Assembly (NCBI GenBank): GCA_016789645.1
Contig: JAEUQP010000454.1
Coordinates: 1 to 33,563 of the forward strand
DNA: 33,563 nt
Direction: 5' to 3'
Origin: Acidobacteriota bacterium
Lineage (GTDB): Bacteria; Acidobacteriota; Blastocatellia; RBC074
Part shown: positions 152 to 21,770 of the stretch, one piece after another
Layout: each line of letters begins with the position of its first letter
Numbering within the stretch: the stretch's first letter is position 1
Notes under the pieces: generated by a model
Seen by the model: the letters and a program-made list of their open reading frames with translations, nothing else
What the model was told of the DNA's origin: nothing
The model's database searches: none
Position numbers and translations under genes: made by a program

Positions 152-898
152 TTAATGCGCGCCCAGCACCTGACGCACGGTTCGCCCCCAACGTCTGATG
201 GTTAGATATCCGTCCAGCTTCCCCTCCACCAGCGATGTCAATTGCGGCGTTGATTGCAAGTAATACATATCCACACGCGGCAACAAATGCAGCGGATCCT
301 CATTCGTTCGCCGCAATTCCGTTGTGCAAGCCGACGCCATCGTTCGCCGCACGACTGCTTCCGCCTGGTGATTTCGATACCCGTACGGATAGGCGAAGTT
401 TTCCACCGGCTGGCCGATGTGGTCGCTGATTTCAGCACAACACCCGGCAATCTCTTCTTCAATGTCCGGTTCGGACAACCGGCGCAAATCAGGATGTGTG
501 CGTGTGTGCGCGCCGATCTCAATTCCCTGTTTGGCCAATTCCTTGACTTGAGGCCAGCTCAACATACGCTGCGAACCCAAGCCCGCAGGCGGAGAATCCC
601 AATCGTTGTTGCCTCCGACATGCCCGCTGATGACAAATACCGTCGCCGTGAAATCGTGTTTCGCCAGTTCCGGCATCGCCGTTTCGTAAAAGTTGGCAAA
701 GCCGTCGTCAAACGTCAGCACGACACACCGTTCCGGCCAATGTCTGTTGGCCTGGCGAAAGGCAAGCGCCTCGTGCAGCGAAATGCCTTGAAAGCCTGCT
801 GCGGCCAACGCTTTCATCTGCTCGGCAAACACGTGCGGCGCGATGGAAACCACCGAACCGCTGTCATCAATCGAGTGATAAGTCAGAATCGCGAGCAT
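152..898 (-). CDS. Polysaccharide deacetylase (NodB-homology, CE4 family)
   Basis: A 248-aa protein with the NodB-fold signatures. LTFDDGF near residues 61-67 carries the catalytic-base and metal Asp pair. HTRTHPDL near 131-138 gives the two metal-binding His. FAYPYGY near 168-174 is the third motif. CE4 enzymes remove N-acetyl (or similar acyl) groups from sugar polymers or lipid-linked sugars using a divalent metal. No signal peptide is visible, so it may act in the cytoplasm on an intermediate, as in several glycolipid pathways. The ATG lies 2 bp after the stop of the preceding glycosyltransferase, indicating translational coupling. The family is secure and the substrate unknown. Confidence 0.88.
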
Positions 899-900
899 CG

Positions 901-1863
901 TTATTCAGACACCTGTGAATTCGTCGCAGCCATCGGCCAATCGTGCTTCAGTTCCGGAGCGCCGTTGACGTATCCGACCAACTCTCCCCAGGCCCAGCCA
1001 ATCAACAAACCGGCAACCAGCGGCAAGGTCATGGCCATCTGGCTCACGGTGCGTCGCTGGCGAAGCATGTGTTTCGCACCGCGCAGCCACAACACGATTG
1101 GCAACAATGGAGTCAAAAGCGTAAACAAGATTCGTTTCGACAAACCAATTGCGGCGACGCGTGTTTCAGCAAACACACGCCCCCATTCCACACGCTCTCG
1201 AAAGGCTTTGCTGAAGGTGATGCCGGGGCGATGCTGATAAACCTTCAGCGCTGGATCGAGCCGCAATTCGATGCCGCGTTCGCGCATTGTCCAATGCACT
1301 GTCGTTTCGTGGTACTCGTCGCACCAGATGTCACGCACGGCTTCCAGAGCCTCGCGTTTGTACGAAACGTTCACGTCGGAAACATACTCCACTTCGCCTT
1401 GCGGCAACGGACTGCCATATCGCCCAAAATCGCAATAATACAATGCCCAGTTCATCGGGCGATCAATTCCGTTTTCAATGGCTCCGCCGATGACACTGAA
1501 CGATTGCCGATGCGCCCACAAAATCTGATTTACCCAATCGGTTGCTGGAACAGCATGGTCTTCGGTCATGGCGATGATTTCGCCGCTGGCCAAGCCAAGC
1601 CCGATGGCGCGGCGCAGGTCGTATAACCTGTGCTGGTGAGCCGGAACGTGAGATGCGACGGAGTTGGCAATCCGATGAAAATTGACTTCCGGAAATTCGG
1701 AGATGAGTTCGCTCACGCCCTGTGACCACTCATCAAATGGCACGATGATTTCGGTGGCGACGTGTTGCATTTGTGGACGCAACGCCAGCAAACAACGCCG
1801 CAGCGCAGATTTGCCACTGACAACGGTAACCAGTATGGAAAGCTTGATCCCTTTATTTGGCAT
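901..1863 (-). CDS. GT2-like glycosyltransferase with membrane-associated C-terminus
   Basis: A 320-aa protein with a GT-A-like N-terminus (KLSILVTVVSGKSALRRCLLAL). At the position where GT2 enzymes carry DXD it has the segment MTEDHAVP, around residues 98-105. Acidic residues near WCDEYHETTVHW may be the catalytic region. Hydrophobic segments occur near residues 245-260 and 275-295, so it probably sits on the inner membrane. The ATG overlaps the end of the upstream GT2 gene by 11 bp, and the deacetylase follows after 2 bp. It likely adds one sugar to the glycan made by this cluster. The atypical DXD could mean a changed metal requirement. Family assignment is good; donor and acceptor are unknown. 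Confidence 0.75.
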   Translation of the reverse strand: MPNKGIKLSILVTVVSGKSALRRCLLALRPQMQHVATEIIVPFDEWSQGVSELISEFPEVNFHRIANSVASHVPAHQHRLYDLRRAIGLGLASGEIIAMTEDHAVPATDWVNQILWAHRQSFSVIGGAIENGIDRPMNWALYYCDFGRYGSPLPQGEVEYVSDVNVSYKREALEAVRDIWCDEYHETTVHWTMRERGIELRLDPALKVYQHRPGITFSKAFRERVEWGRVFAETRVAAIGLSKRILFTLLTPLLPIVLWLRGAKHMLRQRRTVSQMAMTLPLVAGLLIGWAWGELVGYVNGAPELKHDWPMAATNSQVSE

Positions 1864-2947
1864 GAACTTTCGGACGAGCGTTTTCCGCCGTGGCCTGTGC
1901 TGCGCTTTCAGCCTTTTCAGGTTGTTTTTCCAAATGATGAGCCACCGTTCCCCAGATCACGCACAACCCGCAATACCAAAAATACAACCAGTGCATCGGC
2001 AGAACTCTGAGCGTAAACCACACGCCCGAATGCGCGATGAAGTACCGGTAAAAATCAAAGTTCAGCGCCGAAACCAGTGACAACAACAGCAAGGCGATGA
2101 TTCCCGCCACAGGCCACCACCAAACCAACGGCAACAACGCCGAAGCCAGCCAGGTCAATGCCACACAAACGCGTTGCGAAGATTTCGCGTTCAACGTATT
2201 GGCCGCCGCTCCGGCGCGCAACATCAACCGGATCCACGGCACACCGCGATCAAAGATGTCGGTTTTCAGAATGCTCCACAATGTCCAGCGTTTGAGGTGC
2301 GTGGCTTTGACTTGCGGAGCCAGCACAATTTGAAATCCGGCGGCGGAAACCCAGGTTCCCAATTCGATGTCTTCGATGGCCGGTCGCCGATAGCGCTCTT
2401 CATCAAATCCGCCGAATGCCAGAAACAGGTCGCGACGCATCGCCCCACAGCCGCTCCAGAACGTGCTGACCTGTCCGGCGTTGATCTGGTGAACATAATG
2501 ATGAAAGAGGTTTTTGTATTGCGAAAAGAAGCTCGGTTCGGCAGGAGTTTCATCGTACGATCCAACAACGGCGTCAATCATTGAATCCACGGTGAAGACA
2601 TTGGCGAACTGTTTCAACGTATCGCGGTGAACGACCACATCGGCATCAATGAACACCAGATATTTGCCTTTGACGCGAGCCACGCCGCGATTGCGCGCGC
2701 GCGCCGGTCCACCGGGGCCATCAATTCGCATGTACTCAAACCCGTATTGGGCCACGACTGGAGCCACCGGTTCGGTGGAACCATCATCCACCACCAGCAC
2801 GTCGAAATCGTCGAAATCGGATGCAGCCAATGCCGCCAAGCACTTTTTCAAATATTTCGTGGAGTTATACACCGGCACAACCACCGATAACATCGGAGTT
2901 TGGATCGGCGGTTCCGTCACCGATTTGAGTTTGTCGTGATCACACAC
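1853..2947 (-). CDS. Family 2 glycosyltransferase, membrane-anchored
   Basis: A 364-aa GT2 enzyme. From the chosen start it shows PMLSVVVPVYN (nucleotide-binding strand), VVDDGS, FIDADVVV (DXD-type metal and nucleotide-sugar site) and IEDIELG (the ED motif carrying the catalytic base). Hydrophobic segments near the C-terminus suggest inner-membrane attachment. The open frame extends upstream to 3082, but that would overlap the preceding gene, and the extra 45 residues look nothing like a GT2 N-terminus. The GTG at 2947 is preceded by GGAG at ideal spacing, so I chose it. The gene ends 11 bp inside the next glycosyltransferase gene. It probably transfers a sugar onto a lipid-linked or growing glycan. 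Confident in family and domain, not in substrate. Confidence 0.87.
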   Translation of the reverse strand: MCDHDKLKSVTEPPIQTPMLSVVVPVYNSTKYLKKCLAALAASDFDDFDVLVVDDGSTEPVAPVVAQYGFEYMRIDGPGGPARARNRGVARVKGKYLVFIDADVVVHRDTLKQFANVFTVDSMIDAVVGSYDETPAEPSFFSQYKNLFHHYVHQINAGQVSTFWSGCGAMRRDLFLAFGGFDEERYRRPAIEDIELGTWVSAAGFQIVLAPQVKATHLKRWTLWSILKTDIFDRGVPWIRLMLRAGAAANTLNAKSSQRVCVALTWLASALLPLVWWWPVAGIIALLLLSLVSALNFDFYRYFIAHSGVWFTLRVLPMHWLYFWYCGLCVIWGTVAHHLEKQPEKAESAAQATAENARPKVHAK

Positions 2948-2954
2948 TTGAGTT

Positions 2955-2958
2955 CTCC
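2955..2958 (-). promoter_or_regulatory. Shine-Dalgarno deciding the GTG start at 2947
   Basis: On the minus strand GGAG is followed by seven bases (AACTCAA) and then GTG, in frame with the GT2 gene. The longer frame start at 3082 lies inside the upstream gene, so this ribosome binding site supports the shorter 364-aa product. Confidence 0.65.
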
Positions 2959-3036
2959 AATTTGCCAGGTCGTACCGCAACCAATTGTAAGTGCCGCTTG
3001 CAAACCATCGCTCTTCCCCTTCGCTACATTGACGTT

Positions 3037-3768
3037 TCAGCCGTTCCGAAACCGGTAAAACGTTTTCAGCGCAACGAACCAATCTTTGGGCCCGATTTTT
3101 TTTCCCTCTTCTTTACTACGCGGAAAGTAACTGATGGGAACTTCTTTGATCTGGCACCCTTGCGCCAGAACTTTGGCAGAGATTTCGTGATCCAGCTCAA
3201 AACCGCTGGTTTGGAGCGCGAGCGGTTTGATGATTTCGCGGCGAAACAGTTTCAACGCCGTCACCGTGTCGGTCAGATAATTGCCCGTGCAAATCAGCGA
3301 AGCGAAACTCAGGCTTTGACCGCCCAAATAAGCTGGCCAGCTTTGCCGCGCGTGTTTGCCGGTCAGCAAATTCACCAGCTTGCCGCGCGTGGGATGTTTC
3401 AGGTATCGGCTGCCGTACACCGCGCCGGTTCCGTTTGACAACAACGCCGCCAACATTGGCACGTAATCATCCGGATCGTATTCCAGATCAGCATCCTGAA
3501 TGATGAGGTAATCACCGGTTGCTTGCGCAATACCAGCGCGCACCGCGGCGCCTTTGCCTTGATTCGGCCTTTGACTGATCAATGTCACATCGGGAAATTG
3601 CCGGACGATTTCTGCCGTGCGGTCTTTGGAACAGTCATCAATGACGATGACTTCCTTGCCCAGATTGAACTGCGACAAATCCACGGCCAGCACTTTTTCC
3701 AGCAGCGCGCCGATGAACTGTTCTTCGTTATACGCAGGGATGATGACGGAAAGTTTGTTGGTAACCAT
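3037..3768 (-). CDS. Dolichyl-phosphate-mannose-synthase-like GT2 (polyprenyl-phosphate glycosyltransferase)
   Basis: A 243-aa GT2 protein resembling DPM1-type synthases, which move a sugar from a nucleotide donor to polyprenyl phosphate on the cytoplasmic face. Visible motifs are LSVIIPAYNEE at the N-terminus, VIDDCSKDRT, IIQDADLEYDPDD (DXD) and AVYGSRYL; length fits the single-domain family. There is no C-terminal membrane domain. I chose the ATG at 3768; an in-frame TTG at 3786 would add six residues. Either start overlaps the end of the nucleotidyltransferase gene by about 40-60 bp, so the two are translationally coupled. With the GT39 and GT87 enzymes upstream in the operon, which use polyprenyl-phosphate sugars, it probably supplies their donor; that link is inference. 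Confidence 0.85.
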   Translation of the reverse strand: MVTNKLSVIIPAYNEEQFIGALLEKVLAVDLSQFNLGKEVIVIDDCSKDRTAEIVRQFPDVTLISQRPNQGKGAAVRAGIAQATGDYLIIQDADLEYDPDDYVPMLAALLSNGTGAVYGSRYLKHPTRGKLVNLLTGKHARQSWPAYLGGQSLSFASLICTGNYLTDTVTALKLFRREIIKPLALQTSGFELDHEISAKVLAQGCQIKEVPISYFPRSKEEGKKIGPKDWFVALKTFYRFRNG

Positions 3769-4498
3769 TGGCCAGATATTCAGCAATCAATTCCAGATCG
3801 GCTTTGGTGTTGACGCCGACCGATTCCATTTCCGTGTGCGCCGGAAACGTATGTACGTTTGCACCTTGCGCGTTCAGCCAGGGGATGAACGGCAGAAAGT
3901 TTCGCTCCTTTGTCGCTCCGCCAACGACCGCGGTTTCGGAAAAACGCGGCAACAGTTCCAGGTAAGCCGTGCGCGACAAACTGAACAATCCCAAATCGCC
4001 TTCGCCGCGTTCGGGCATGGGATCGCCTTCGCGTCGTTGGCGCAAACCGTTGATGCGGCCTTGCTGGTCACGTTCGAAATGAATGTAAGGGGCAGTTTTG
4101 ACAGTCGTAGGCATGACCAATTCTGCTTCGCCAGCCGTTTCTGCCAATCGCCGAACCGTTCGCGGATGAACGCCGATTTGATCGCACCACGTAATCCAGA
4201 CCTGATCGGGTTGGTAACGCTCCACTCGCTGGCGAGGAATCAGAATCGCGTCCAGCATTCCCGTCGGCGAACCCTGCACGTCGAACTCAACCGGCAATCG
4301 TAACGTCGCGCAATGCCGTTCGACCTGTTCAACCGTCGTCGGATGCAACACCAGCACAAACCGGCTGACGACCGGCGCGTACAGATCGAACAGATAATTC
4401 AACATCGGTCGGCCATTGACCGGATACAGCAACTTCGGTGTTTGTGATCCCAGCCGCGTCCCCAAACCGGCAGCCGGAATGATCAACAGTCGTTTCAT
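3728..4498 (-). CDS. Sugar-1-phosphate nucleotidyltransferase (NTP_transferase fold)
   Basis: A 256-aa protein opening MKRLLIIPAAGLGTRLGSQTP. This is the nucleotide-binding signature (G-X-G-T-R-L) of NTP transferases that join a nucleoside monophosphate to a sugar phosphate, releasing pyrophosphate. The lysine in PKLLYPVNGRPML matches the conserved phosphate-contacting Lys, and WITWCDQIG sits where the metal-binding Asp is expected. The ATG overlaps the HAD stop in an ATGA arrangement, a strong sign of coupled translation. The closely packed HAD phosphatase resembles heptose and related NDP-sugar pathways, where a phosphatase and a nucleotidyltransferase act in sequence. The actual nucleotide and sugar are unknown. 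Confidence 0.85.
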   Translation of the reverse strand: MKRLLIIPAAGLGTRLGSQTPKLLYPVNGRPMLNYLFDLYAPVVSRFVLVLHPTTVEQVERHCATLRLPVEFDVQGSPTGMLDAILIPRQRVERYQPDQVWITWCDQIGVHPRTVRRLAETAGEAELVMPTTVKTAPYIHFERDQQGRINGLRQRREGDPMPERGEGDLGLFSLSRTAYLELLPRFSETAVVGGATKERNFLPFIPWLNAQGANVHTFPAHTEMESVGVNTKADLELIAEYLANGYQQTFRHHPCV

Positions 4499-5148
4499 TG
4501 TTCTGAGTAATTCAGTTTCGCCAGCAGCGTCCGAACATCCGGGAAGCTGCCGAGGAAGCGTTCGTGATCGGCCTGGATGCCGCTTCGCACTGACGCCGTG
4601 TAGGCTCGCGAAGCGACCGCAGCGGTCAACCCGGATTGACTGTCTTCGATAATCAACGTTCGATGCGGCGCAACGCCAGCGCGCTCCATCGCTGAAAGAT
4701 AAACTTCTGGCGCAGGTTTGCCTGCGGCAACATCGTCGCCCGTCACAATCACCGAAAACGCTTCGCCCCAGCCGAACCGCCCCAAAACCATGGCCGTCGT
4801 TTCGCGCGAAGCCCCGGTGCCAATCCCCAGCCGCAAACCGCTGCGTTGTCGTCCCAACCGCCCGATGCATTCCAGACTGTCGTGAAAGACAATTTTTTCC
4901 GTTTTCAAATAATGCCGCGCGCGTTGCTGTTTGAACCCAACCCATTCGGCAACCTGTCCTGTTGTTGGGTTCAACGCCGCTGTCAGTTCGACAACCACCT
5001 CAATGGTTTTTCGTCCGGCAATCTGTTCGTAAGCTCGACCCGCCACGCCCACCAATCGCCATAAATCGTCGTACGCGCGGCGATGGCATTCGGTCGTATC
5101 CACCAGAACGCCGTCCATATCGAAAATCAACAGATCAATATCAGTCAT
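4495..5148 (-). CDS. HAD-superfamily phosphatase / phosphoglucomutase-like hydrolase
   Basis: A 217-aa HAD protein. FDMDGVLVDT near residues 8-17 holds the nucleophile Asp and the acid/base Asp two residues later. GIGTGAS is motif II, KPAPEVYL supplies the motif III Lys, and LIIEDSQSGL is motif IV with the Mg-binding acidic residues. The helical cap between motifs I and II is the beta-phosphoglucomutase/phosphatase type. I chose the ATG at 5148; a GTG one codon earlier (5151) is equally possible. The gene sits 30 bp after the CofD-like fusion gene and overlaps the nucleotidyltransferase by 4 bp. It likely dephosphorylates or isomerises a sugar phosphate for that partner. Chemistry class is certain, substrate unknown. 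Confidence 0.86.
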   Translation of the reverse strand: MTDIDLLIFDMDGVLVDTTECHRRAYDDLWRLVGVAGRAYEQIAGRKTIEVVVELTAALNPTTGQVAEWVGFKQQRARHYLKTEKIVFHDSLECIGRLGRQRSGLRLGIGTGASRETTAMVLGRFGWGEAFSVIVTGDDVAAGKPAPEVYLSAMERAGVAPHRTLIIEDSQSGLTAAVASRAYTASVRSGIQADHERFLGSFPDVRTLLAKLNYSEQ

Positions 5149-5178
5149 CACTTGATACCGAATTCTGCAGGGGAAGCC

Positions 5179-7272
5179 TTAGCGACCTGCCCCACCGCGC
5201 GAAACATATTCAGGAAGGCTCAGGTCGTTCACACGTTCCGTACTGCCTTTACGCCGCCGCGATTTCGCCAATCCGCGCAACACAGTCACCAGCGAGCGCA
5301 TTCCCTCAACCACCGTCGTTCGTTTCACTTTATCCGGCGACAGCGGGAAAAACTGCACGGGCGTTTCGATCACTTCGGCCTGATCTTCCAGCAACAGACA
5401 CAGTAATTTTTGATTGAAGCAGGAATCGTTGATGTCCAATTGTTCGTTGCGCAGATACGAAGCCCGAATGGCTCTGACCGCCGAAAGCGTGTCTGACAGG
5501 TAACGCCCATACCGCAGCAAATACGCCAGGCTGAGCAGATGGCTGCCAACGTAACTGACCGCGCCAAGCACAACGTTGTGCCGGTAACGCAATCGGTAAG
5601 ATTCGTGAATGTCTTTGACCGACAACCGGCGGCTTCCCCACACGGCGTCCAACCGCGGATTGGTCAACAACGAAGCCACGTTGACGATTTCTTCGCCGCG
5701 ATACATTCCGGACGAATCGAACAGCAACACATAATCAAAAGCCTGCCCTGCGATCGTCTGGCGAAACGCTTCCGTGGCCGTCTTGCCAGACGATCGCAGG
5801 TTGAGCGCCTCGAACGGCAGCGATTCGACAAATGCCGGATCGAGCGATTCGCTGCTGGAATACAGCATTGAAACTTTCAGCGGCAGATTGCCAAGCCCGC
5901 CACGCAAGGCTTCCAACATCGTTTGCGCAATCTTGTTCAGCGATTCGGTTTCCAACAACCAGACGGCAACCCGTTGCCCGCCGCCGCGATGCAAAATTCC
6001 GTTGATGAACGGCAGCAGCAACTTTGCCGCGTCATGCGTGCCGGTTGTGCCTTCTTCGTAATTGCCGATGCGAACCAGGCGCGGGTCTTCCAGCGTTTCC
6101 AAACGTCCGAGCGGCACATACGGCTTTTCGTCTTCGGTTTGCAGATGGTCGTTCAACAGGTAATGCGTAATCAGGCAAGGCGTGGCAATCGGTTTGGTGT
6201 TGCGATCTTTCAGGTAATAAACCGCGCGTTCGATGATGTCCACGGCGCTGCTGTCCGGAATCTCGGCGTCTTCCTGCAAATTGGTGATCAGCAATTTGAT
6301 CGCCGTCAGATTGCGCGCGATGGCTTCGCCAAGTCCCGGCGTCAGATACGAAGGAAACAAGCTGGAATGCTGTGTGCCCGGCGAATAGATAATCAAATCC
6401 GCTTCGGCGATTCGATCCAGCAAGCGAGCGTTGATGGCCGGAACTCGCGTTCGCTGACGAATGAACTCTGCCACTTCTTCACTGTTTGCCGACGCCACCC
6501 AGCGTTCTTCTTCAGGCGTCAGCGTGCGGTCAAACAGGTAAATGTCTTTGATGTGGTTGCGGCGATTGGCGCTGACGATTTCGGCTTCGGTGGCCAGCAA
6601 CTGATTTTCCAGGTTCAGCGCCACCAGACAGGCGTTTTGGCCATCGGTCACGTTTTCGATCAAACCTTCGGGCAAACTGAACAACGCGCAATAATCAGCA
6701 ATCGCGGCGTTGAAATCGCGTCCGACTGCCAGAAAACAACCGGCAAAGGCGATGTTTCCCAGCGCGCAATCCGAGAACGAAAAGCTGCGTCTGCCCGTCA
6801 CCAATTCCTGTTCGAAGCGCTGCAACCGCTCGCCGAGTATTCGCCGCGCAGCGTCATCAATTTTATCGAGCGTCGCGCGCAATTCGTTTTGCCAGGCGGT
6901 TGTTGCGGTTACTTCCCGACCGGACAACAAACGCAGCGTCATCAACCCTTCGTCGGCGGTGCATTCCACTGGCAAGCGCACGTCCAGCAGATCAATCAAC
7001 TCCGGCTGACAGGTTTTCAACTCGCGCGCCATACGCGAAGCGTTCTTGCGAAAATCCGACGGCCCCAGACTGTCGCCCAAAAAGCGTCGCACTTCGCCGG
7101 TCGAAGCTCCGTCGTCGTATCCGTTGACGGCCAGTGTCAATTTCACGCGCGGATGATTGATCAATTGCCGCGACAACACGCGCGAGCCTCTGCCGCCGGA
7201 AAACAACACGACTTTGACGATTGACTGGTCGCGTCCGAGCGAAGCAATTTGTTCAGCGACGTTCACAGCCAT
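5179..7272 (-). CDS. CofD/YvcK-like domain fused to a DPM1-like GT2 domain
   Basis: A 697-aa two-domain protein. Residues from about 17 to 420 resemble the CofD/YvcK superfamily: VVLFSGGRGSRVLSR (phosphate-binding loop), YDDGASTGEVRRFLG (the DDG-S-G signature), GPSDFRKN, and IIYSPGTQHSSLFPSYL, which parallels GPGS-TS-P in YvcK. CofD joins a phospho-acid to a deazaflavin; YvcK binds UDP-GlcNAc. The last 230 residues look like a GT2 domain: a DXD-like LLFDSSGMY with a Ser in place of the second Asp, AVWGSRRLS, and a DTLSAVRA segment matching the D-TG-RA motif of DPM1-type enzymes. The ATG at 7272 has a perfect AGGAGG upstream, so the longer frame to 7368 is rejected. Function is unknown; context points to activated sugar or phosphodiester synthesis. 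Confidence 0.75.
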   Translation of the reverse strand: MAVNVAEQIASLGRDQSIVKVVLFSGGRGSRVLSRQLINHPRVKLTLAVNGYDDGASTGEVRRFLGDSLGPSDFRKNASRMARELKTCQPELIDLLDVRLPVECTADEGLMTLRLLSGREVTATTAWQNELRATLDKIDDAARRILGERLQRFEQELVTGRRSFSFSDCALGNIAFAGCFLAVGRDFNAAIADYCALFSLPEGLIENVTDGQNACLVALNLENQLLATEAEIVSANRRNHIKDIYLFDRTLTPEEERWVASANSEEVAEFIRQRTRVPAINARLLDRIAEADLIIYSPGTQHSSLFPSYLTPGLGEAIARNLTAIKLLITNLQEDAEIPDSSAVDIIERAVYYLKDRNTKPIATPCLITHYLLNDHLQTEDEKPYVPLGRLETLEDPRLVRIGNYEEGTTGTHDAAKLLLPFINGILHRGGGQRVAVWLLETESLNKIAQTMLEALRGGLGNLPLKVSMLYSSSESLDPAFVESLPFEALNLRSSGKTATEAFRQTIAGQAFDYVLLFDSSGMYRGEEIVNVASLLTNPRLDAVWGSRRLSVKDIHESYRLRYRHNVVLGAVSYVGSHLLSLAYLLRYGRYLSDTLSAVRAIRASYLRNEQLDINDSCFNQKLLCLLLEDQAEVIETPVQFFPLSPDKVKRTTVVEGMRSLVTVLRGLAKSRRRKGSTERVNDLSLPEYVSRGGAGR

Positions 7273-7274
7273 CG

Positions 7275-8597
7275 TTACCTCCTGACGTTTGCGTGCTCCC
7301 ATTGCGAAGTCAGATAGCTCTGAAAAAGCTCCTGGCGATAACGAACCACAAAAACCAACGTCAGCCACAGCGGACTGCTTTTCAGCAAACCGACGGCGAT
7401 CAGTTCCGGCACCGAATCAAATCTGAAACGCGAGTTCACGACGTTGACCACCACAATGTTTTGAAACAGCGACACGGCGAAAATCTCAACCAGCAACGCC
7501 TTTGCCGAAAAACTGAATTGCCGAACAGAGGCAACCGCGTAAGCCAGCAACAGGAACAGCACAGCCAGGTAATGCTCCCAAACCGTTTGCGAAAACATCA
7601 GGCAGAACGTGACCGCCATCAGAAAATCGAAATGCCGTTGGGCTGCGCGCGACAGGTTTTGCTGGCGACTTTGCCAGTACATCCAACCGAAGATCAGCAC
7701 GATTGCCAATTTCAACAACATCACGGGAAGTGCCAACCAGCGAGTTTCCATCGGCGGCACCGCCAACAACTTCAGGTTTTCCGCCGTCACGTACAGCGAA
7801 CTGTTGTAGAGCCATTCGTAAGCGTTTTTCATCCCCTGCAACATCGTTTGCAGAAATGCCGCGTGAATATCCCACCCCAACAGCAGGATCGAACCCAACC
7901 CGGTCGCCAGTGAAACGAACGCCATCGAACGCACGAAGCGCCAGCCGGAAACCAAGCCCAGCGGCAACATCACGAACAGAAATCCGGGTTTGATTAACAA
8001 GGCCAGCAACAGACAGACGGCTGAAATGTCAAAACGTTCTTTGGTGTAATTCAACAGCGCAATGGTGAACAGCAAAAACACCGTCGGCGTGGTTTGGCCG
8101 CCGACTCTGAACACAGACCAGAACGGTTGGTACAACAAAACCAACCCGGCAAACAGCGCGGCAAATTTCCATTGCTCCGCGGGCGAAGCGTCTGCAAAAC
8201 GACGAGTATGCCGGTACAACAACCACAATGCAGCAAACAGCGCCAGTACGTTTTGCAGTTTGAACACCACCAACGCCCATTCCGCTGAAAATAAACTCAA
8301 CGGAGCGTAGAAGTACGCCGAAATCGGCGCTCCCCAAAACGCCAGTTTGCCTTGTGGCTGAGCGCCCGCGATCAAACGTTCAGGGCGATAAATGTCGGCC
8401 AGTTGTCCGGCGGCGGCTCTGCGACCGGTGTCGTAAAAGTTGGCGAAGTCCCAGCCCAATCCGGCGGGGACGACAATTCCAGCCATTGCCACCAAGGCGA
8501 TGACCGCCAGCAGCAAAAACGTCAACCGGCGATAAAACCGCCCGGCATCGCCGTTTTGCGCCAGCCGTAAATCCAATGTGTTCGGAAAGGATTGCAA
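7275..8597 (-). CDS. GT87-like (DUF2029) polytopic glycosyltransferase
   Basis: A 440-aa, mostly hydrophobic protein with about ten predicted membrane spans. It resembles DUF2029/GT87 mannosyltransferases such as PimE, which take mannose from polyprenyl-phosphate-mannose on the outer face of the membrane. The characteristic first extracytoplasmic loop is present: GWDFANFYDTGRRAAAG followed by IYRPERL, where the Asp is the likely catalytic acid or base. The frame begins at a TTG (8597) with no clear Shine-Dalgarno, so the exact start is uncertain, but later ATGs would cut off the first span. Its end overlaps the ribosome binding site of the CofD-like fusion gene, and it follows the GT39-like gene by 18 bp. 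The family is fairly clear; donor sugar is not. Confidence 0.75.
   Translation of the reverse strand: MQSFPNTLDLRLAQNGDAGRFYRRLTFLLLAVIALVAMAGIVVPAGLGWDFANFYDTGRRAAAGQLADIYRPERLIAGAQPQGKLAFWGAPISAYFYAPLSLFSAEWALVVFKLQNVLALFAALWLLYRHTRRFADASPAEQWKFAALFAGLVLLYQPFWSVFRVGGQTTPTVFLLFTIALLNYTKERFDISAVCLLLALLIKPGFLFVMLPLGLVSGWRFVRSMAFVSLATGLGSILLLGWDIHAAFLQTMLQGMKNAYEWLYNSSLYVTAENLKLLAVPPMETRWLALPVMLLKLAIVLIFGWMYWQSRQQNLSRAAQRHFDFLMAVTFCLMFSQTVWEHYLAVLFLLLAYAVASVRQFSFSAKALLVEIFAVSLFQNIVVVNVVNSRFRFDSVPELIAVGLLKSSPLWLTLVFVVRYRQELFQSYLTSQWEHANVRR
7278..7283 (-). promoter_or_regulatory. Perfect Shine-Dalgarno AGGAGG for the CofD-GT2 fusion gene
   Basis: The minus strand reads AGGAGG, five bases (TAACG), then ATG at 7272. 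The TAA in the spacer is the stop codon of the upstream GT87-like gene. This fixes the start of the fusion gene and shows tight coupling of the two genes. Confidence 0.75.
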
Positions 8598-8615: not shown

Positions 8616-10844
8616 TTATCTCAACAACGCTTGAGCAGACGTTGGGCCTTCGACGATGCGAAAACCGGATTTGGTAATCGAGGGGCCGTTGATGATCCAG
8701 ATGGGGCGATCAGCATATTGCTGCAACAGCTTCGCGCGCAGTTCAGGAGTTTGATCCCAGACATAAACCGGCGCGTCGGCTTGCAAATTGATCGGATTGT
8801 AAATCGCCGCTGAGGCGAAATCGGGGAATTGTTGGCCGCGAATCAGCACCAGGCTTTTGCCGAACTTGTGCTGCTTGGCTAATTGGCGAACGTCGGCCCG
8901 CATTCCCAAATAGTGATGATATTTGTCTATCGCCCGCCAGGGAGTGAAGTTGATCGCTGCCATAAAACAGAGCGCCAACAATCCGACCAGCGCTCTGGTT
9001 TTGGGCAGATGCGGTTGCGGAGATTCGTGTGTCAGGCGGTTGACCAGCACTTGCAACCCGCGCACGGTCAGCACGACAACCGGAACGATCATCAAATACC
9101 AGTACCGTGCAGCGAAATCCGGGCCGCCGCTGAACCAGTAAAAGAAATGCGCCGTGAAAATCCCCGCGATCATCGCCGCCATCAACCAATCGCCCGGTCG
9201 CAGTTTTAACGAAACAGCAAACAACGCGAGCAAAATCAGCGAACCGATGCTCCATCCAAAAAGCTCTGTGTTGATGGTGGTGATGTTCAGGTTGGAATTG
9301 ATGACGCCTTCAATCGGGCTGTGGCCGGGATACGGATCAAGCGGCCATCCGGCTCCGCGATCAGGGCCGAACCCCATCGCGTTCGAATTCAAGCCCATAT
9401 ACTTGTCTGCCCAAGCCATGATCGGAAATCTGGTCGGGCTGCCGGTCAATGTGAAGTTGTAATAGAAAATCGCCGCGCCGACCACCGCGCATCCCAATGC
9501 CCAAGCCGCCATGCCGGAAAATTTCAATGGCTTTTCGCCTTTGCCAATCAGCCGCAACACCAGCGGCGAACACAACACCGCAGCAAAAACCGCGCCTTCC
9601 AGTGGACGAATCATCCCGACCATTCCCGTGGCTGCGCCGCTGAGCAGCGCCCAAAGAACACTGCCATTCTTTTTCGCCCAAAGCATCGCCACTGAGGCCA
9701 ACAGCACAAAGGTCAGCGAAGCCGTGTGCGTCATATAGCTCATTCCGACCAGCGCGTGCCAAGGCGACAAAGCCAGCAAAAATGCCGTCAATCGAGCCGT
9801 GCGCCGGTCGTATAATTCGCGCACCAGCAGAAAGCTCAGGAACACGCACACGCCAGCCAGCAACGGATTCACCAGCCAATCGGCTTTGAAGAAAACTCCA
9901 ATTGCCAACACCAGCGGCCATCCAACCGGCGGACTCGCCCACCAACGGGTCGCGTCGTGGTCGAACAAATCCAGATCGAAGGCTTCCAGCGGCGCAGGCA
10001 CAGGCATGGTCAAAACACCAGTCGCCAGATACCGCGCGTGATACAGATAAGCGATCTCGTCACCCAGATGCGGATGCCGTTCATACGAAAAGACGCTCAG
10101 CGCCCCGGCCAGCACGACCGTGAAAATCGCTGCCGTCATCGCAAACCGATCCACGCGGCGAGCTTCTTCGGTATTCTCGTCAGCCCAACCGGTGATTCGC
10201 TCGATTCGCCAGCGCCATTCATCCAACGTCGAAATCGGAATCGCCCACACCGCCAACACCAGATTCAGCAAATTCACGGTTTGAATGAAAGCCGCCAGAG
10301 GCAATTCCTGCACATACAACCAGACTTCGCGCGAGACGGTGGCAGTGGCAATCCAGAACACCAGCGCCACGCTGACCAATTGCCAGAGTTTGAAGTTGCG
10401 GTTCAACCACGAAACCATCGTCGTCCATCGTCCGCGCAACCCCACCAACACCAGCAACGTTTGCGCCGCCAGCATCGCCACCAACCACGGCGACGAAGCC
10501 AGCAAAATACTCAACGGACGATAATGCTGATACCGAATCGCCTGCCCGGCTTCGATCATTTGCAACGCGACAGCTTGTCCAACCAATGCCAGTGCCATCC
10601 ATGCCGCAGCGCTTCGCCACGCTTTGCCGAGCGCGTACCCCAGCAACCCCAACGCAACAGCGATGGCGATCGGCAAACAAACGCCGCCGCGAACGAAGCC
10701 TTCGCTGTCTCGAAACCGAGAATCGGTCAACGCCCAAACAACAACGCAGACGGCCAGCAACCAGCAGACGAGTTGCTGAAACTTCATTGCGTATCCGGTT
10801 TGGGCTGTCGCGCCATTTACTGGAGAGGTGAGTTCCGAATCCAT
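8616..10844 (-). CDS. GT39/ArnT-like membrane glycosyltransferase with long N-terminal membrane extension
   Basis: A 742-aa integral membrane protein. HLGDEIAYLYHARYLATG near residues 260-280 is the acidic-pair motif of the first external loop in PMT/ArnT (GT39, GT-C fold) enzymes, and SPPVGWPL and ALSPWHALVGMSYMTHT further on fit the family. These enzymes use a polyprenyl-phosphate sugar on the periplasmic face to decorate proteins, lipid A or glycans. In ArnT the DE motif lies near residue 55. Here about 200 extra residues with several membrane spans precede it. ATG at 10844 lacks an obvious Shine-Dalgarno; an alternative ATG is at 10787. The gene precedes the GT87-like gene by 18 bp. Good family call, unknown substrate. 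Confidence 0.77.
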   Translation of the reverse strand: MDSELTSPVNGATAQTGYAMKFQQLVCWLLAVCVVVWALTDSRFRDSEGFVRGGVCLPIAIAVALGLLGYALGKAWRSAAAWMALALVGQAVALQMIEAGQAIRYQHYRPLSILLASSPWLVAMLAAQTLLVLVGLRGRWTTMVSWLNRNFKLWQLVSVALVFWIATATVSREVWLYVQELPLAAFIQTVNLLNLVLAVWAIPISTLDEWRWRIERITGWADENTEEARRVDRFAMTAAIFTVVLAGALSVFSYERHPHLGDEIAYLYHARYLATGVLTMPVPAPLEAFDLDLFDHDATRWWASPPVGWPLVLAIGVFFKADWLVNPLLAGVCVFLSFLLVRELYDRRTARLTAFLLALSPWHALVGMSYMTHTASLTFVLLASVAMLWAKKNGSVLWALLSGAATGMVGMIRPLEGAVFAAVLCSPLVLRLIGKGEKPLKFSGMAAWALGCAVVGAAIFYYNFTLTGSPTRFPIMAWADKYMGLNSNAMGFGPDRGAGWPLDPYPGHSPIEGVINSNLNITTINTELFGWSIGSLILLALFAVSLKLRPGDWLMAAMIAGIFTAHFFYWFSGGPDFAARYWYLMIVPVVVLTVRGLQVLVNRLTHESPQPHLPKTRALVGLLALCFMAAINFTPWRAIDKYHHYLGMRADVRQLAKQHKFGKSLVLIRGQQFPDFASAAIYNPINLQADAPVYVWDQTPELRAKLLQQYADRPIWIINGPSITKSGFRIVEGPTSAQALLR

Positions 10845-10896: not shown

Positions 10897-11220
10897 TTAT
10901 TTTCTCAATCCGACCACCAGGTTGTAGATCGTCCCGATCACCCAGCCAACAATGCCGCCGGTCAGCGCACCGTAAAACAATCCGATGACACTGCCGCCCC
11001 AACTCACCGAATAACCGATGAAGTAATTGCCCAGCAGTGACAAATGCGGCCCAGCTCCGGGGCCATCTTTCACCACCAACCAGACAGTCATCGAAAATAA
11101 CAGCAACCCACCCAACACCGCGCAAACCATGGCCAACACTCCGGCCTGGATTCGCATAACCTCGCGGCTTATTTCTTCTGTTCGTTTGTTTCCAGCCATA
11201 GTTACACTCTCTGTTGTCAT
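10897..11220 (-). CDS. Small membrane protein, paralogue of the oxidoreductase C-terminal module
   Basis: A 107-aa protein with a short charged N-terminus and two hydrophobic segments, near residues 27-51 and 68-95. I do not recognise a named family. Its second half matches the C-terminal tail of the next protein upstream in the operon: both share K-x-G/D, GP-L-LL-N, Y-V-(S/T)W-G and GL-G-G-x-(W/F) in the same order. The ATG at 11220 has GAGGGA upstream; an earlier in-frame start at 11250 would overlap the oxidoreductase gene. The two genes are 16 bp apart. It may form a membrane complex with the oxidoreductase or with the following glycosyltransferases; that is inference. Confidence 0.7.
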   Translation of the reverse strand: MTTESVTMAGNKRTEEISREVMRIQAGVLAMVCAVLGGLLLFSMTVWLVVKDGPGAGPHLSLLGNYFIGYSVSWGGSVIGLFYGALTGGIVGWVIGTIYNLVVGLRK

Positions 11221-11236
11221 AATTCCCTCGCCAACA

Positions 11237-13075
11237 CTAATCCAAGACATTGCCCGCGGCCTGAGTTTCCGCCCGCCGTTTGAGCAGATGGGCGTACGCC
11301 ATCATTGACCAATTTCGCAGCGACGCGACGAAAAATCCCAACGCAAATCCAATCAGACCGCCTTCGACCAAACCAAGCAAAGCTCCCGGCCAGGTCACCT
11401 CATAACTCGGCAGGAAGTTTCGCAACAAGCCCAACCGAGGCCCGACGAATTCGCCGCCTTTCAACAACAAGATCGCCGTCGCCAAAAACAGTCCCACCCC
11501 AGCAACGACGCCGAAGGCTACGCCCAGAGCCACACTGTCCAATTTGGCGAATGCTGTCTGGATGATTTGTTCTGCTTCGTCCGGCTCGATGGGCATTGGA
11601 ACGGCGCGGTCGCCCATTGTTTTGGTATAGCCCGTGCTGACCGTTTCCGTTTCCGAACTGCGAACCTCTTCGTGGTAATCCTGTTCGGTGTTGACTGCCC
11701 AGACGTCATTCTTTTCGCCAACGATGTTGCGCGCAGCATAAACGCCCGTCAGCATCGAATGATCCTGATTGTTGTACCGATGCAATCCATTGCGTCCGAT
11801 GGTTTGCAGATTCGGCAACGTGTCCAGGTAATTTCGAATAATGTCCACACGTTCCTGATAGTGATGATCGTAAACCGGGTACGCCTTTTTCATGCGAACG
11901 ACGGTTCCGTCTTCGACTTCATCCGGTTCGACCAACCCAATTTGCGCACACTCTTTGATGCCGAGGTCAATCAACCGGTCATTTGACCACGTCCATTCCT
12001 CGTCTTTCTGCCAGAGAAAGTATTCCAGGCCCAGCGAAGAGCGGGACGGGTCCGGAACCATTTCGGGACTCCAGTTTTTGTAATTCTGAATGCGTCCCAT
12101 CTTCACTTCAGGCGAATGAATGTAAATCCAGTTGTCGGGGAAAACGTGTTCGCGTTTGGCCATCAACACGACGGTCAAATAATCGCGATAACGCAGCGAA
12201 TTCGCTGCCGCCAGCACTTCATCCGGCGGTAATGGATCGAGGCTTTGAATCAACCGTCGCAACGGCATCGAAGAGATGAACTGATCGGCATCAAATTCCA
12301 CTCGTTCGCCATTCGAGCGATGGCCGATCACGGATTCAACTCGACCTTTGCGGTGACGAATTTTATCTACCTTGATGCCGTGAATGGTTTCGTTGCCTTT
12401 TTCGGCCAGCAATTCCTTGCAGCATTCCCACATCATTCCCGGCCCCAAACGCGGATAGTGAAATTGTTCGATCAGCGTGGTGATGACTTCGCCGTCGGCG
12501 GATTTGCCTGCCCCCAACAAGGCATTGCGAATGGCTTCTTTCAACGACAGATTCTTGATGCGCTGGGCCGCCCAGTCCGCCGAAATTTCGTTGCAGGGAA
12601 TGCCCCAGACTTTTTCGGTGTAGGTTTTGAAGAAAATTTCGTACAGCCGCTGGCCAAACCGATTGGAAACCCATTGTTCCAGGTTGGTTTCTTCGGAGTG
12701 CGGAAAGAGCTTGGCCTTGGAATAGCTGAGCATCACCAGAAAAGCTTCGATGGGCCCAAGCCCCGCCAGCGCATTGGCGGCTTTCAGCGGGTAATCAAAA
12801 AAATGGCCACGGTAATGAATGCGAGATAATCGCGGACGGAGCAGAAAATCTTCGCTTAGCATTTCGCGCCACAGTTCGTTGATCAGCGGCACTTTGGAAA
12901 AGAACCGGTGGCCGCCGATGTCGAACCGGTACCCTTTGTAATTGACCGTACGCGAAAGACCTCCGACCTGCTCATCAGCTTCGATGATGGTTGAAGAAAC
13001 GCCCAGCTTGGCCAGTTCATAGGCGCTGGTCAATCCAGCCGGGCCTGCACCGATAACTAATGCCCTTGATGACAT
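11237..13075 (-). CDS. FAD-dependent oxidoreductase (UGM/amine-oxidase-like) with C-terminal membrane module
   Basis: A 612-aa flavoprotein. ALVIGAGPAGLTSAYELAKLG at the N-terminus is the dinucleotide-binding GXGXXG fold, IIEADEQVGGLSRT binds FAD ribose and phosphate, and FDIGGHRFFSK is the conserved patch seen in UDP-galactopyranose mutase-like and amine-oxidase-like proteins of glycan clusters. The flavin domain ends near residue 480. Two hydrophobic segments follow (roughly 515-590), an addition not normal in UGM, which averages about 390 aa. The tail resembles the small membrane protein encoded 16 bp downstream. It starts at an ATG with AAGGA upstream and is the first gene of the minus-strand cluster. 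It may rearrange or oxidise a sugar or prenyl intermediate at the membrane. Redox role is sure, reaction unknown. Confidence 0.8.
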   Translation of the reverse strand: MSSRALVIGAGPAGLTSAYELAKLGVSSTIIEADEQVGGLSRTVNYKGYRFDIGGHRFFSKVPLINELWREMLSEDFLLRPRLSRIHYRGHFFDYPLKAANALAGLGPIEAFLVMLSYSKAKLFPHSEETNLEQWVSNRFGQRLYEIFFKTYTEKVWGIPCNEISADWAAQRIKNLSLKEAIRNALLGAGKSADGEVITTLIEQFHYPRLGPGMMWECCKELLAEKGNETIHGIKVDKIRHRKGRVESVIGHRSNGERVEFDADQFISSMPLRRLIQSLDPLPPDEVLAAANSLRYRDYLTVVLMAKREHVFPDNWIYIHSPEVKMGRIQNYKNWSPEMVPDPSRSSLGLEYFLWQKDEEWTWSNDRLIDLGIKECAQIGLVEPDEVEDGTVVRMKKAYPVYDHHYQERVDIIRNYLDTLPNLQTIGRNGLHRYNNQDHSMLTGVYAARNIVGEKNDVWAVNTEQDYHEEVRSSETETVSTGYTKTMGDRAVPMPIEPDEAEQIIQTAFAKLDSVALGVAFGVVAGVGLFLATAILLLKGGEFVGPRLGLLRNFLPSYEVTWPGALLGLVEGGLIGFALGFFVASLRNWSMMAYAHLLKRRAETQAAGNVLD

Positions 13076-17951: not shown

Positions 17952-20900
17952 TCAGCGATGAGCCAGTTCTACGGTTTGCGCTGGAATCATTTCGCCACTC
18001 TGCGACGCAATGTCTGCGGAGTTTGAATCCCCTTGTTCAACAGGCCCGTCCCACTTCACCAACTTCAAATCCAGCACGAAGATGGCGTACAGCACAGGTA
18101 CCAACAGCAAGGTGACAACCGTCGCAATGCTCAATCCGCCGATTTGCGCGTAACACATTGGCTCCCACAACGGACCGCCGTGCGCCGCCAACGGAAACAA
18201 CGCAATTACCGTCGCGCCGACCGTAATCAGCACAGGTCGCAGTCGCATAATCCCTGCATCCAGCAAAGCTTCGCGCAAGCTTTCGCCGCGTTCGTGCGCT
18301 TCTTCAATGAAATCAAACAAGACGATGACGTGGCTGACGATGACGCCGACCAAACTGACGCAGCCCAGAAAGGCCATAAAGCCAAAGGGCGTTCCCATTG
18401 CCCACAACGCTGCCAACGCGCCCACCATTCCATAAGGAATCGCCGCGAAGACGATCAACGGTTTGATGGCATGTTTGAATTGGAAGACCAGCGCCAGAAA
18501 GATGGCGATAATGGAAATGACCAGAATGACAGCCAGATTCTTGAAGCCTTTGACCTGCTCTTCCTGTTCGCCGCCAATTTCCATTTTGTAACCGGGAGGC
18601 AAGGCAGCGGCGAACGCATTCAATTGTTCGCGTGTGGCTCCCATTACTTCCGAAGGCAATCTGCCTTCTTTCGGAAAACAGGAAACCGTGATGGTGCGGA
18701 ACTGGTTTCGACGACGCAGCTTTTCGGTTTGCATGTGGTATTCAACCGATGAAACCTGTCCCAACGGCACGCGCCCGGTTCCCTGCGAGGAATAAACGTA
18801 CAAATTGTTGAGGTCTGTCAGTTGCGCGCGCTCTTCCATTCGCAGCCGAGCAACGACGGGAATTTCCTTGTCGCCTTCGCGCAGTTTGGTCACCAGATAT
18901 CCGCTGGTGGCAGTGGCCGAAGCCGCAGCAACGTCGTAATTGGTTACGCCTGCAAGATTGGCGCGATCCGGATCCGTGTGCAGTCCGACGGTGAAGCTTT
19001 CATCGCCCCAATCGTCGCGCACGCGCGTGGCATACGGCGTCGAGCGGAAAATCTCCTTGACCTGCTCGGCTTGCGAGCGCAGCAAGGCCGCGTCTTCGCC
19101 CGAAATCCGAATCTGCACCGGTAAGCCCACGGCCTTGCCCGATTCCAACTGCCGCACGTCCACGCGCGCGCCTGTCACGGCAGCGTTCAACGCTTCCTGC
19201 AACGGTTCGATCAAATGTTCTGTATCGTGTTTGTCTTTGACCTGGATGATGATCTGCGCGTAATTGAGTTGCTGTTGTTCCGGTGCAACGGAAAACCAGA
19301 ATCGCGGGCCGCCTCCGCCGATGAAGGTCGTCAGCGATTGCAGCATTTCGCCTTTTTGATGCTCTTTGCCGTATTCCTGCACGACATCGCGGATCACTTC
19401 TTCGGCGCGATGCGCGGCTTCATTCGTCGCCGTAAGCGGCGCATCTTCCGGCAGCCACACATCCACATAGGACAGGTACGACAAATCTTTCGGGAAAAAT
19501 TGCTGCTTGAGCTGGCTCATGAAAATGCCACCGAGAACCAGAAACACGAGCGAGCCAGCCAGTACTTTCCAACGATGAGTGATCGCGCCGTTGCCGATGC
19601 GGTAATAAAACGCGGCGAAGCCTTTGTTGCGGCGTTCGGCAATCGGCGTTTCCACTTTCGGGCGCAACAGGTAATACCCCAGCAACGGAATGAAGGTCAT
19701 CGAAACCAATCGCGAAGCCACCAGCGAACAGGTCAGCACAACCGGCAGCGAGTACACGAATTCGCCCGTCGCGCCCTGCAAAAACAGGAACGGTAGATAA
19801 GCGACGATGTTTGTCACGGTCGCATACATAATCGCTTTTGCCAGCTTCGTTGGCCCCAACCATGCGGAAATCACAGACGGATGTCCTGTCGCCAGATCGC
19901 GCTTGATGGCATCGCCCGCAACAACCGGATCGTCCACCAACAAACCCAGCGCGATGATCAAGCTGGCGACGGAAACCTGCTGCAAATCAATGCCCACTGC
20001 GTGCATCATTCCGAACGTCATCAACAACGTGATCGGCATGGAAAGCGCCATCAGCGCCGCCGAACGCCATTCCCAGAATCCGATCAAGGAAACGATGACG
20101 ACCAAAAACACGGCTTCGTACAAACTGTTCATAAACAGATTGACGTTTTCGCGCACCTGCAACGGTTGGTCGGAAGTTCGCGCCATTGCCAAATCTTCGG
20201 GCAACCGCGTTTTCAGATCGGCCAATGTTTCGTCAATCGCTGCGCCGAATTTGTCTATCTGTTCGCCGGAGCGCATTTGCACAGCCAAGGTGACGGCGCG
20301 CGTGCGATGCCATTCGCCTTTGCCGTCGCGCCAGTTGTAGTAATTCAGAAAGCGCGCAGGGCTGTCGTAACCGCGCACCACATCTGTCAGATCGCGCAGG
20401 TATACCGGCGCGCCACCCGCCGACGAAGTCACCGTCACATCCCCGATTTCTTTTTCGCTTTTGAATTCGCCGCTGGGATCAATCGAAAGATTTTTTCCTT
20501 CGACCGCAAGCTGCCCGCCCGGCAACGTGATGTTGCGCGCGTTCAAGATGTCCGGCAGCTTCGACGTTTGGATGCCGTAAGCCGCCAGGCGTTCCTGCGA
20601 GTAGTATAGAAACACGCGTTCATCCAGCAGCCCGGAGCGCGAGACTTTGGAAACCATCGGCAAGGTCTTGATGGTCTTTTCGATCAAATCCGTGAACTGA
20701 TCGAGTTCGTGGTAGCTGTATTTGTCGCCCGCTACCGCAGCGAGTTTCGCGCGCGTTTCCTGCGGATCGCGGATCACGACTGGTTGCCAGGCGTCCGGAT
20801 GAAGTTCCGCTGTCTGCAAATGCTCGCGCATAAACTGCCCAGCAGTATTCAGGAACGCTGCGTCGTCCCCATTGAAAACGCCATCCACGCCAATGAATCC

Positions 20901-21680: not shown

Positions 21681-21698
21681 AAGGTTTCTCCCTCCTGA

Positions 21699-21763
21699 AA
21701 TGTGGCGCGGGTTCTTTACCCGCACTGTGAGAATCAGCGCGGGTAAAGAACCTGCGCCACATT
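21699..21763. repeat. Large near-perfect inverted repeat between adaptor and pump genes
   Basis: Two 25-base arms, 21699-21723 and 21739-21763, are complementary at 24 of 25 positions and enclose a 15-base loop. The core is GCGGGTTCTTTACCCGC-like. It lies in the 90-bp gap between the adaptor stop and the pump ATG, ending next to the pump ribosome binding site. It could be a dispersed palindromic element and may affect mRNA stability or translation of the pump. Confidence 0.85.
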
Positions 21764-21770
21764 CTTTTCG

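Follow-up and report, generated by a model that had tools for sequence, protein, structure and literature searches.

CofD/YvcK proteins act in processes as different as cofactor synthesis and cell-wall control. In F420 biosynthesis, FbiA/CofD holds its metal on two Asp residues, and the acceptor hydroxyl is poised to attack the beta-phosphate of a nucleoside diphosphate (NDP), with release of guanosine monophosphate (PMC7253369). In Listeria, the uridylyltransferase activity of GlmR is reduced about 100-fold in the D40A/D41A/N198A mutant (PMC10128056). Among the polyprenyl-phosphate sugar transferases, PfDPMS uses Glu12, the base-binding Asp39 and the metal-binding Asp91 and Gln93, with Arg117 as ligand of the lipid phosphate (PMC5526996). 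Here we describe a gene in the window, which is the whole 33.6-kb contig (33,563 nucleotides) of an Acidobacteriota metagenome-assembled genome (MAG), that joins these two well-studied folds in a combination undescribed in the papers that we found. Its product carries an N-terminal CofD/YvcK domain and a C-terminal domain of the GT-A fold that is probably a pseudo-glycosyltransferase (pseudo-GT), and looks like a soluble two-domain component of a polyprenyl-phosphate-linked sugar donor pathway. The whole analysis is based on MAGs and predictions.

Gene and domain layout

The gene starts with an ATG at position 7272, preceded by an AGGAGG Shine-Dalgarno sequence (7278-7283) that overlaps the 3' end of the upstream GT87-like gene. 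The alignment of orthologues also backs this start. The open reading frame (ORF), strand, coordinates and motifs quoted in an earlier sequence-only reading of this DNA are all present. That reading gave the N-terminal 420 residues to a CofD/YvcK domain. The identity holds, but the length is slightly too long, since the domain covers residues 20-377 and is followed by a conserved linker to about residue 430. The GT-A domain takes up residues 431-670, approximately. Hydropathy revealed no transmembrane segments in the protein, and the full-length model is weak (predicted local distance difference test, pLDDT, 60.4), too weak for the domain arrangement.

The fusion is present in four genomes of the genus as well as in independent MAGs from other lineages, which rules out a chimeric assembly or a frameshift artefact. 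A single TGA had been reported for the fusion of one genome (G300), but it is not a gene break: the ORF is intact and encodes 658 residues.

The N-terminal CofD/YvcK domain

Profile PF01933 matches residues 21-375 (E 1.1e-16, 61.3 bits, above the Pfam gathering cut-off of 30), as had been expected from the motifs. The best-scoring named model is TIGR04357, the GAK system CofD-like family (E 1e-22, 81 bits), whose cut-off of 340 bits is not reached. In a Foldseek search with the model of this domain, the top five matches were all YvcK BH3568 (2hzb/2o2z; probability 1.00, E 5e-10, TMt about 0.61), and a profile search of the PDB retrieved YvcK-type proteins only. Nine homologues, with identities as low as 32%, share four invariant motifs: DDG-STG, GPSD-RKN, F-DC--GN--FAG and PGTQHSSL-PSYLT. 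As a guess, D73 in the second of these motifs could be the second metal ligand. Other full-scoring CofD-family proteins were found in all carrier genomes tested (11/11), so the fusion is not the housekeeping YvcK.

By alignment and counting, D40, D41 and N198 of Listeria GlmR correspond to D53, D54 and Ser308, so that two of the three residues are kept. This comparison bears on the idea that the CofD domain is an accessory uridylyltransferase that, as GlmR does, makes a uridine diphosphate (UDP)-sugar from uridine triphosphate (UTP) and a sugar-1-phosphate, with the GT half channelling the product. The GlmR activity is direct, and the Asp pair that it needs is retained. However, N198 is replaced by a Ser308 that is invariant in the fusion family, the YvcK model TIGR01826 scores 52.3 bits against a cut-off of 196, and the activity would be redundant beside the dedicated GlmU-like nucleotidyltransferase that is always present. 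We consider this role quite unlikely.

The C-terminal domain

None of the seven members of the C-terminal domain family matched Pfam GT2 models, even at E=10, and TIGR04182 (AglJ) gave a weak match (E 2.9e-6). The hhalign comparison of the seven-member family with the adjacent GT2 family gave E 2.6e-14, probability 98.3 and a score of 98.7, against 22.9 for the best of 60 column shuffles and 15.4 for the reversed control. Foldseek with the AlphaFold model of this half (pLDDT 70.6) returned ArnC 9asc first (probability 1.00, E 2.4e-8), and the top 50 included DPMS, GtrB, MpgS and GpgS. Furthermore, in one homologue (genome G315, locus L025) the same CofD domain is followed by a GT2 that TIGR04182 recognises clearly (E 7e-27). 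The C-terminal domain has a GT-A fold derived from DPM/AglJ-type polyprenyl-phosphate GT2 enzymes. The controlled hhalign comparison, the fold search and the GT2-bearing homologue rule out chance motifs in an unrelated domain, and bear out the GT2-like features that had been read from the letters; structure prediction, which could have refuted them, found the GT-A fold.

To locate the active-site residues, the domain was aligned with its intact GT2 neighbours. Neither PAYNE nor VDD-S survives, and unrelated residues take their places. DADLEY has become [DE]SS[GA]MY, which is conserved in all close homologues and whose extended form, [DE]SS[GA]MYxGE[DE], is new and fixed. Divergent homologues have other replacements of the DXD motif, PGDNEY in G315 and SGDGEY in G525. 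Through the alignment of the partner GT2 with PfDPMS, we found that equivalents of Glu12, Asp39, Asp91 and Gln93 are missing from the GT half, and that the Arg of its GSR motif is kept, equivalent to the phosphate-binding Arg117. The FDSSG at the DXD-like site, with its second Asp lost, had been read correctly before; the Y-N-E and VDD-S motifs are gone as well.

We compared selection along the protein in one pair, the window gene and its orthologue in G002. The ratio of nonsynonymous to synonymous substitution rates (dN/dS, Nei-Gojobori) was lowest for residues 512-670, at 0.052, against 0.158 for residues 431-511 and 0.166 for the CofD domain, indicating that the stretch 512-670, with the altered motif and the would-be acceptor site, is the most conserved. 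This value and the fixed motif rule out a decaying pseudogene domain. Since the donor and metal residues are lost, yet constraint is higher here than elsewhere in the protein, we regard the domain as a conserved pseudo-GT: it lacks the DPMS residues that bind the donor base and the diphosphate as well as those that bind the metal, and is probably inactive. Of the covalent link to a glycosyltransferase proposed earlier, the fold therefore stands and the activity probably does not. The domain is a clear example of selection preserving a glycosyltransferase fold despite the loss of donor-site residues, and one that Pfam does not flag.

The same data were considered for an active, unusual glycosyltransferase, in which the C-terminal domain would transfer a sugar through [DE]SSGMYxGE[DE], either without a metal or by a rearranged mechanism. 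The motif region lies in the most constrained stretch, one motif Asp is kept in two distant homologues, and the D89A and D91A mutants of PfDPMS retain residual activity (PMC5526996). But the donor-base Asp, the Glu of Y-N-E and the metal Asp and Gln are all lost, and an intact enzyme of this GT2 type is encoded alongside. Such an activity is very unlikely.

Distribution and gene neighbourhood

The fusion was found in all four genomes of the genus, and the same search did not find it in seven other genomes of the family. It occurs in 5 of 297 genomes of the phylum, in 2/284 of the phylum of a 'Deltaproteobacteria' MAG and in 2/4 of a small phylum. Homologous fusions are sporadic; their carriers include Acidobacteriota and a 'Deltaproteobacteria' MAG, among others. 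Six loci came from a contig scan; this is a lower bound, since the scan used two peptide patterns.

The nucleotidyltransferase encoded near the fusion belongs to a subfamily that scored 334-403 bits across the 297 genomes, compared with at most 101 bits for all other matches, which are presumably GlmU. This subfamily is present in exactly the same 5/297 genomes as the fusion. The triad of nucleotidyltransferase, fusion and GT2, the last DPM-like at most loci, is kept, in variable order, wherever the locus is long enough to include it, in related and distant genomes alike, which is the conserved neighbourhood that the sequence-only reading had suggested looking for. The order is nucleoside triphosphate (NTP) transferase, fusion, GT2 and SDR in G315, and GT2, fusion and NTP transferase in G525, where the GT2 is less DPM-like. 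HAD and GT87 genes are often, not always, at the fusion loci; no HAD gene stands between the cassette genes in L033, G300, G315 and G525.

A radical SAM protein is encoded near the cassette in three lineages (G001, L031 and G300). The radical SAM genes lie at L040:16908-18065, L031:2426-3562 and L039:9375-10538, with a SPASM domain detected in L040 and L031. None of these proteins reached a named NCBIfam cut-off, and the window contig ends before the expected position.

Shorter, stand-alone CofD relatives are found on proteobacterial plasmids, with 22-26% identity mostly over the CofD domain. The neighbours of those examined are genes for NUDIX proteins, inositol monophosphatases, HAD proteins or transporters (among them ABC transporters), or unrelated genes, and not glycan genes. 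At two plasmid loci of two alphaproteobacteria (L046, L047), a stand-alone GAK/YvcK-type CofD lies near NUDIX hydrolase and inositol monophosphatase genes, and this neighbourhood suggests a phosphoester pathway.

In the window, the fusion gene sits in a run of genes on the same strand, from the FAD oxidoreductase to the polysaccharide deacetylase (Table 1). The profile and PDB matches confirmed the glycan setting and the neighbouring HAD phosphatase and nucleotidyltransferase noted earlier. The catalytic Asp/Lys/Asp residues of the HAD protein are invariant. The nucleotidyltransferase keeps the GlmU UTP residues K25, Q76 and D105 (PMC10128056) as K24, Q77 and D108, plus N232, in 8/8 members, and no CofC model matched it in profile searches. 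Among the annotated cluster genes we recognised no F420 genes. PF02397-type phosphoglycosyl transferases are absent from the cassettes and present elsewhere in all carrier genomes tested. Taken together, the features of the nucleotidyltransferase, the HAD protein and the DPM-like GT2 are most simply read as a cassette that makes an NDP-sugar and loads it on polyprenyl phosphate for GT87/PMT-type enzymes. The last three rows of Table 1 record observations from other parts of the window.

Table 1. Positions of the fusion gene, its domains and motifs, and other features of the window
Feature	Position	Strand	Basis
CofD-pseudoGT fusion gene, 697 aa	5179..7272	-	ORF; orthologues in 4/4 genus genomes
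CofD/YvcK-fold domain, residues 20-377	6142..7215	-	PF01933, TIGR04357, Foldseek 2hzb/2o2z
DDGAST, residues 53-58, Asp pair of YvcK/CofD nucleotide/metal site	7099..7116	-	aligned to YvcK DDGGSSG
GPSDFRKN, residues 70-77	7042..7065	-	aligned to YvcK P-G-D-x-R-N motif
SPGTQHSSLFPSYLT, residues 297-311, second conserved CofD-site loop	6340..6384	-	YvcK equivalent PGSLYTSVLPNLL
GT-A domain, probable pseudo-glycosyltransferase, residues 431-670	5263..5982	-	hhalign to partner GT2; Foldseek ArnC 9asc
LFDSSGMYRGEE, residues 517-528, conserved motif in place of DXD (DADLEY in partner GT2)	5689..5724	-	alignment
FAD oxidoreductase	11237-13075	-	profile search
Small membrane protein, 117 aa, between oxidoreductase and PMT-like gene	10897-11250	-	no Pfam match
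PMT_2-like membrane glycosyltransferase, about 13 hydrophobic segments	8616..10844	-	PF13231 at cut-off; hydropathy
GT87-like membrane protein, about 9 hydrophobic segments	7275..8597	-	PF09594 E 7e-13; hydropathy
HAD phosphatase / beta-phosphoglucomutase-like	4495..5151	-	PF13419 E 4.5e-24; CbbY/beta-PGM closest in PDB
GlmU-N/MobA-like nucleotidyltransferase, private partner of fusion	3728..4498	-	PF12804 E 6.3e-18; GlmU closest in PDB
DPM/AglJ-like GT2, intact DADLEY, partner polyprenyl-phosphate GT	3037..3786	-	PF00535 E 4.6e-34; PfDPMS 5mlz E 9.6e-20
Further GT2 proteins	1853-3082 and 901-1863	-	
Polysaccharide deacetylase	152-898	-	
RND efflux operon: AcrB-type pump, HlyD-type adaptor, OEP channel	17952-24424	-	
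Sigma-54 activator with two GAF domains, upstream of RND efflux operon	25644-27737	-	
Secreted-looking protein, 826 aa, Tyr/Gly-rich repeat-like C-terminal half	30102-32582	+	no Pfam match

Proposed role of the fusion

The CofD domain, the conserved pseudo-GT and the sugar-activating enzyme of its own alongside make the fusion look like an uncharacterised step to a lipid-linked sugar donor. A CofD-fold protein that always comes with an NTP transferase recalls CofC and CofD, in which a phospho compound activated by NDP passes to an acceptor. For this reason we favour, with a probability of roughly 40%, a transfer of phospho-X by the CofD domain from the partner's NDP-sugar to an acceptor that the pseudo-GT would hold. 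The nucleotidyltransferase would make the NDP-sugar, probably a UDP-sugar in view of its retained GlmU UTP residues. The CofD domain would then bind this NDP-sugar and a divalent metal and move phospho-X to an acceptor hydroxyl or phosphate with release of the nucleoside monophosphate (NMP), which would be the chemistry of CofC and CofD in F420 synthesis. The pseudo-GT would hold the acceptor or dock onto the catalytic GT2, after which the GT2 and the GT87/PMT enzymes would load and use the lipid-linked sugar.

Several points weigh against this assignment. The replacement of the catalytic Asn of GlmR by Ser308 means that the chemistry of the CofD domain need not be conserved. The model of the GT half is of moderate confidence only (pLDDT 70.6, TM about 0.45), acceptor binding is proposed from the retained Arg and the high constraint, and the substrate is putative. 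YvcK proteins also serve as UDP-sugar-binding regulators, a role that fits equally.

Such a regulatory role would make the CofD domain a YvcK-like UDP-sugar sensor and the pseudo-GT a scaffold that forms a heterodimer with either the DPM-like GT2 or the nucleotidyltransferase and tunes flux without transferase activity. It agrees with a GT half that seems catalytically dead yet is conserved, and with the oligomerisation of polyprenyl-phosphate GT2 enzymes (GtrB tetramer and octamer entries are among the Foldseek matches). Against it, the metal-site Asp and the PGTQHSSLxPSYLT loop are conserved more strictly than simple sensing would seem to need. We hold this alternative to be somewhat unlikely, and rank phospho-X transfer ahead of it, although both are inferences.

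A more specific form of the favoured transfer would be a new phosphoglycosyl (or phospho-X) transferase, moving sugar-1-phosphate by CofD-type chemistry from the NDP-sugar to polyprenyl phosphate docked in what was once the lipid-phosphate site of the pseudo-GT. This is a long shot; if true, it would yield polyprenyl-diphosphate-sugar and NMP without a phosphoglycosyl transferase embedded in the membrane. The sequence-only reading had proposed that the fusion itself makes an unusual activated phospho-sugar. This is plausible, but the private GlmU-like nucleotidyltransferase is the likelier maker of the activated sugar, and the fusion more likely acts after it or regulates it. The strict pairing of the two provides a small, expressible enzyme set to probe the function of the CofD family in glycan assembly.

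Comparison with known systems

Our literature search returned nothing relevant on a CofD-GT fusion or a pseudo-GT precedent, in agreement with the earlier statement that no characterised protein of this kind was known. The N-terminal fold, the motifs and the DD pair are those of YvcK/GlmR (UPF0052; B. halodurans BH3568, B. subtilis, L. monocytogenes). In contrast to these single-domain proteins, the fusion has an added GT half and a glycan-cassette setting, Ser308 in place of N198, and Arg28 in place of the Thr of YvcK GGTG. The model of the GAK system CofD-like family scores best among those named, but the fusion stays below its cut-off, and the stand-alone relatives examined lack a glycan setting. 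As in CofC and CofD (FbiA) of F420 biosynthesis, a CofD-fold protein with an Asp-metal site is paired with an NTP transferase of the MobA type, but here the nucleotidyltransferase is GlmU-like and the CofD-fold protein carries a C-terminal pseudo-GT. PfDPMS, ArnC, GtrB and AglJ have the GT-A fold and the overall alignment in common with the C-terminal domain. Compared with these polyprenyl-phosphate GT2 enzymes, the fusion is without the donor-base Asp, the Y-N-E Glu, the metal Asp and Gln/Glu and transmembrane segments, and is joined to CofD; what it keeps of them is the GSR motif, the conserved Asp of the SDTLS motif and the C-terminal E-x-P.
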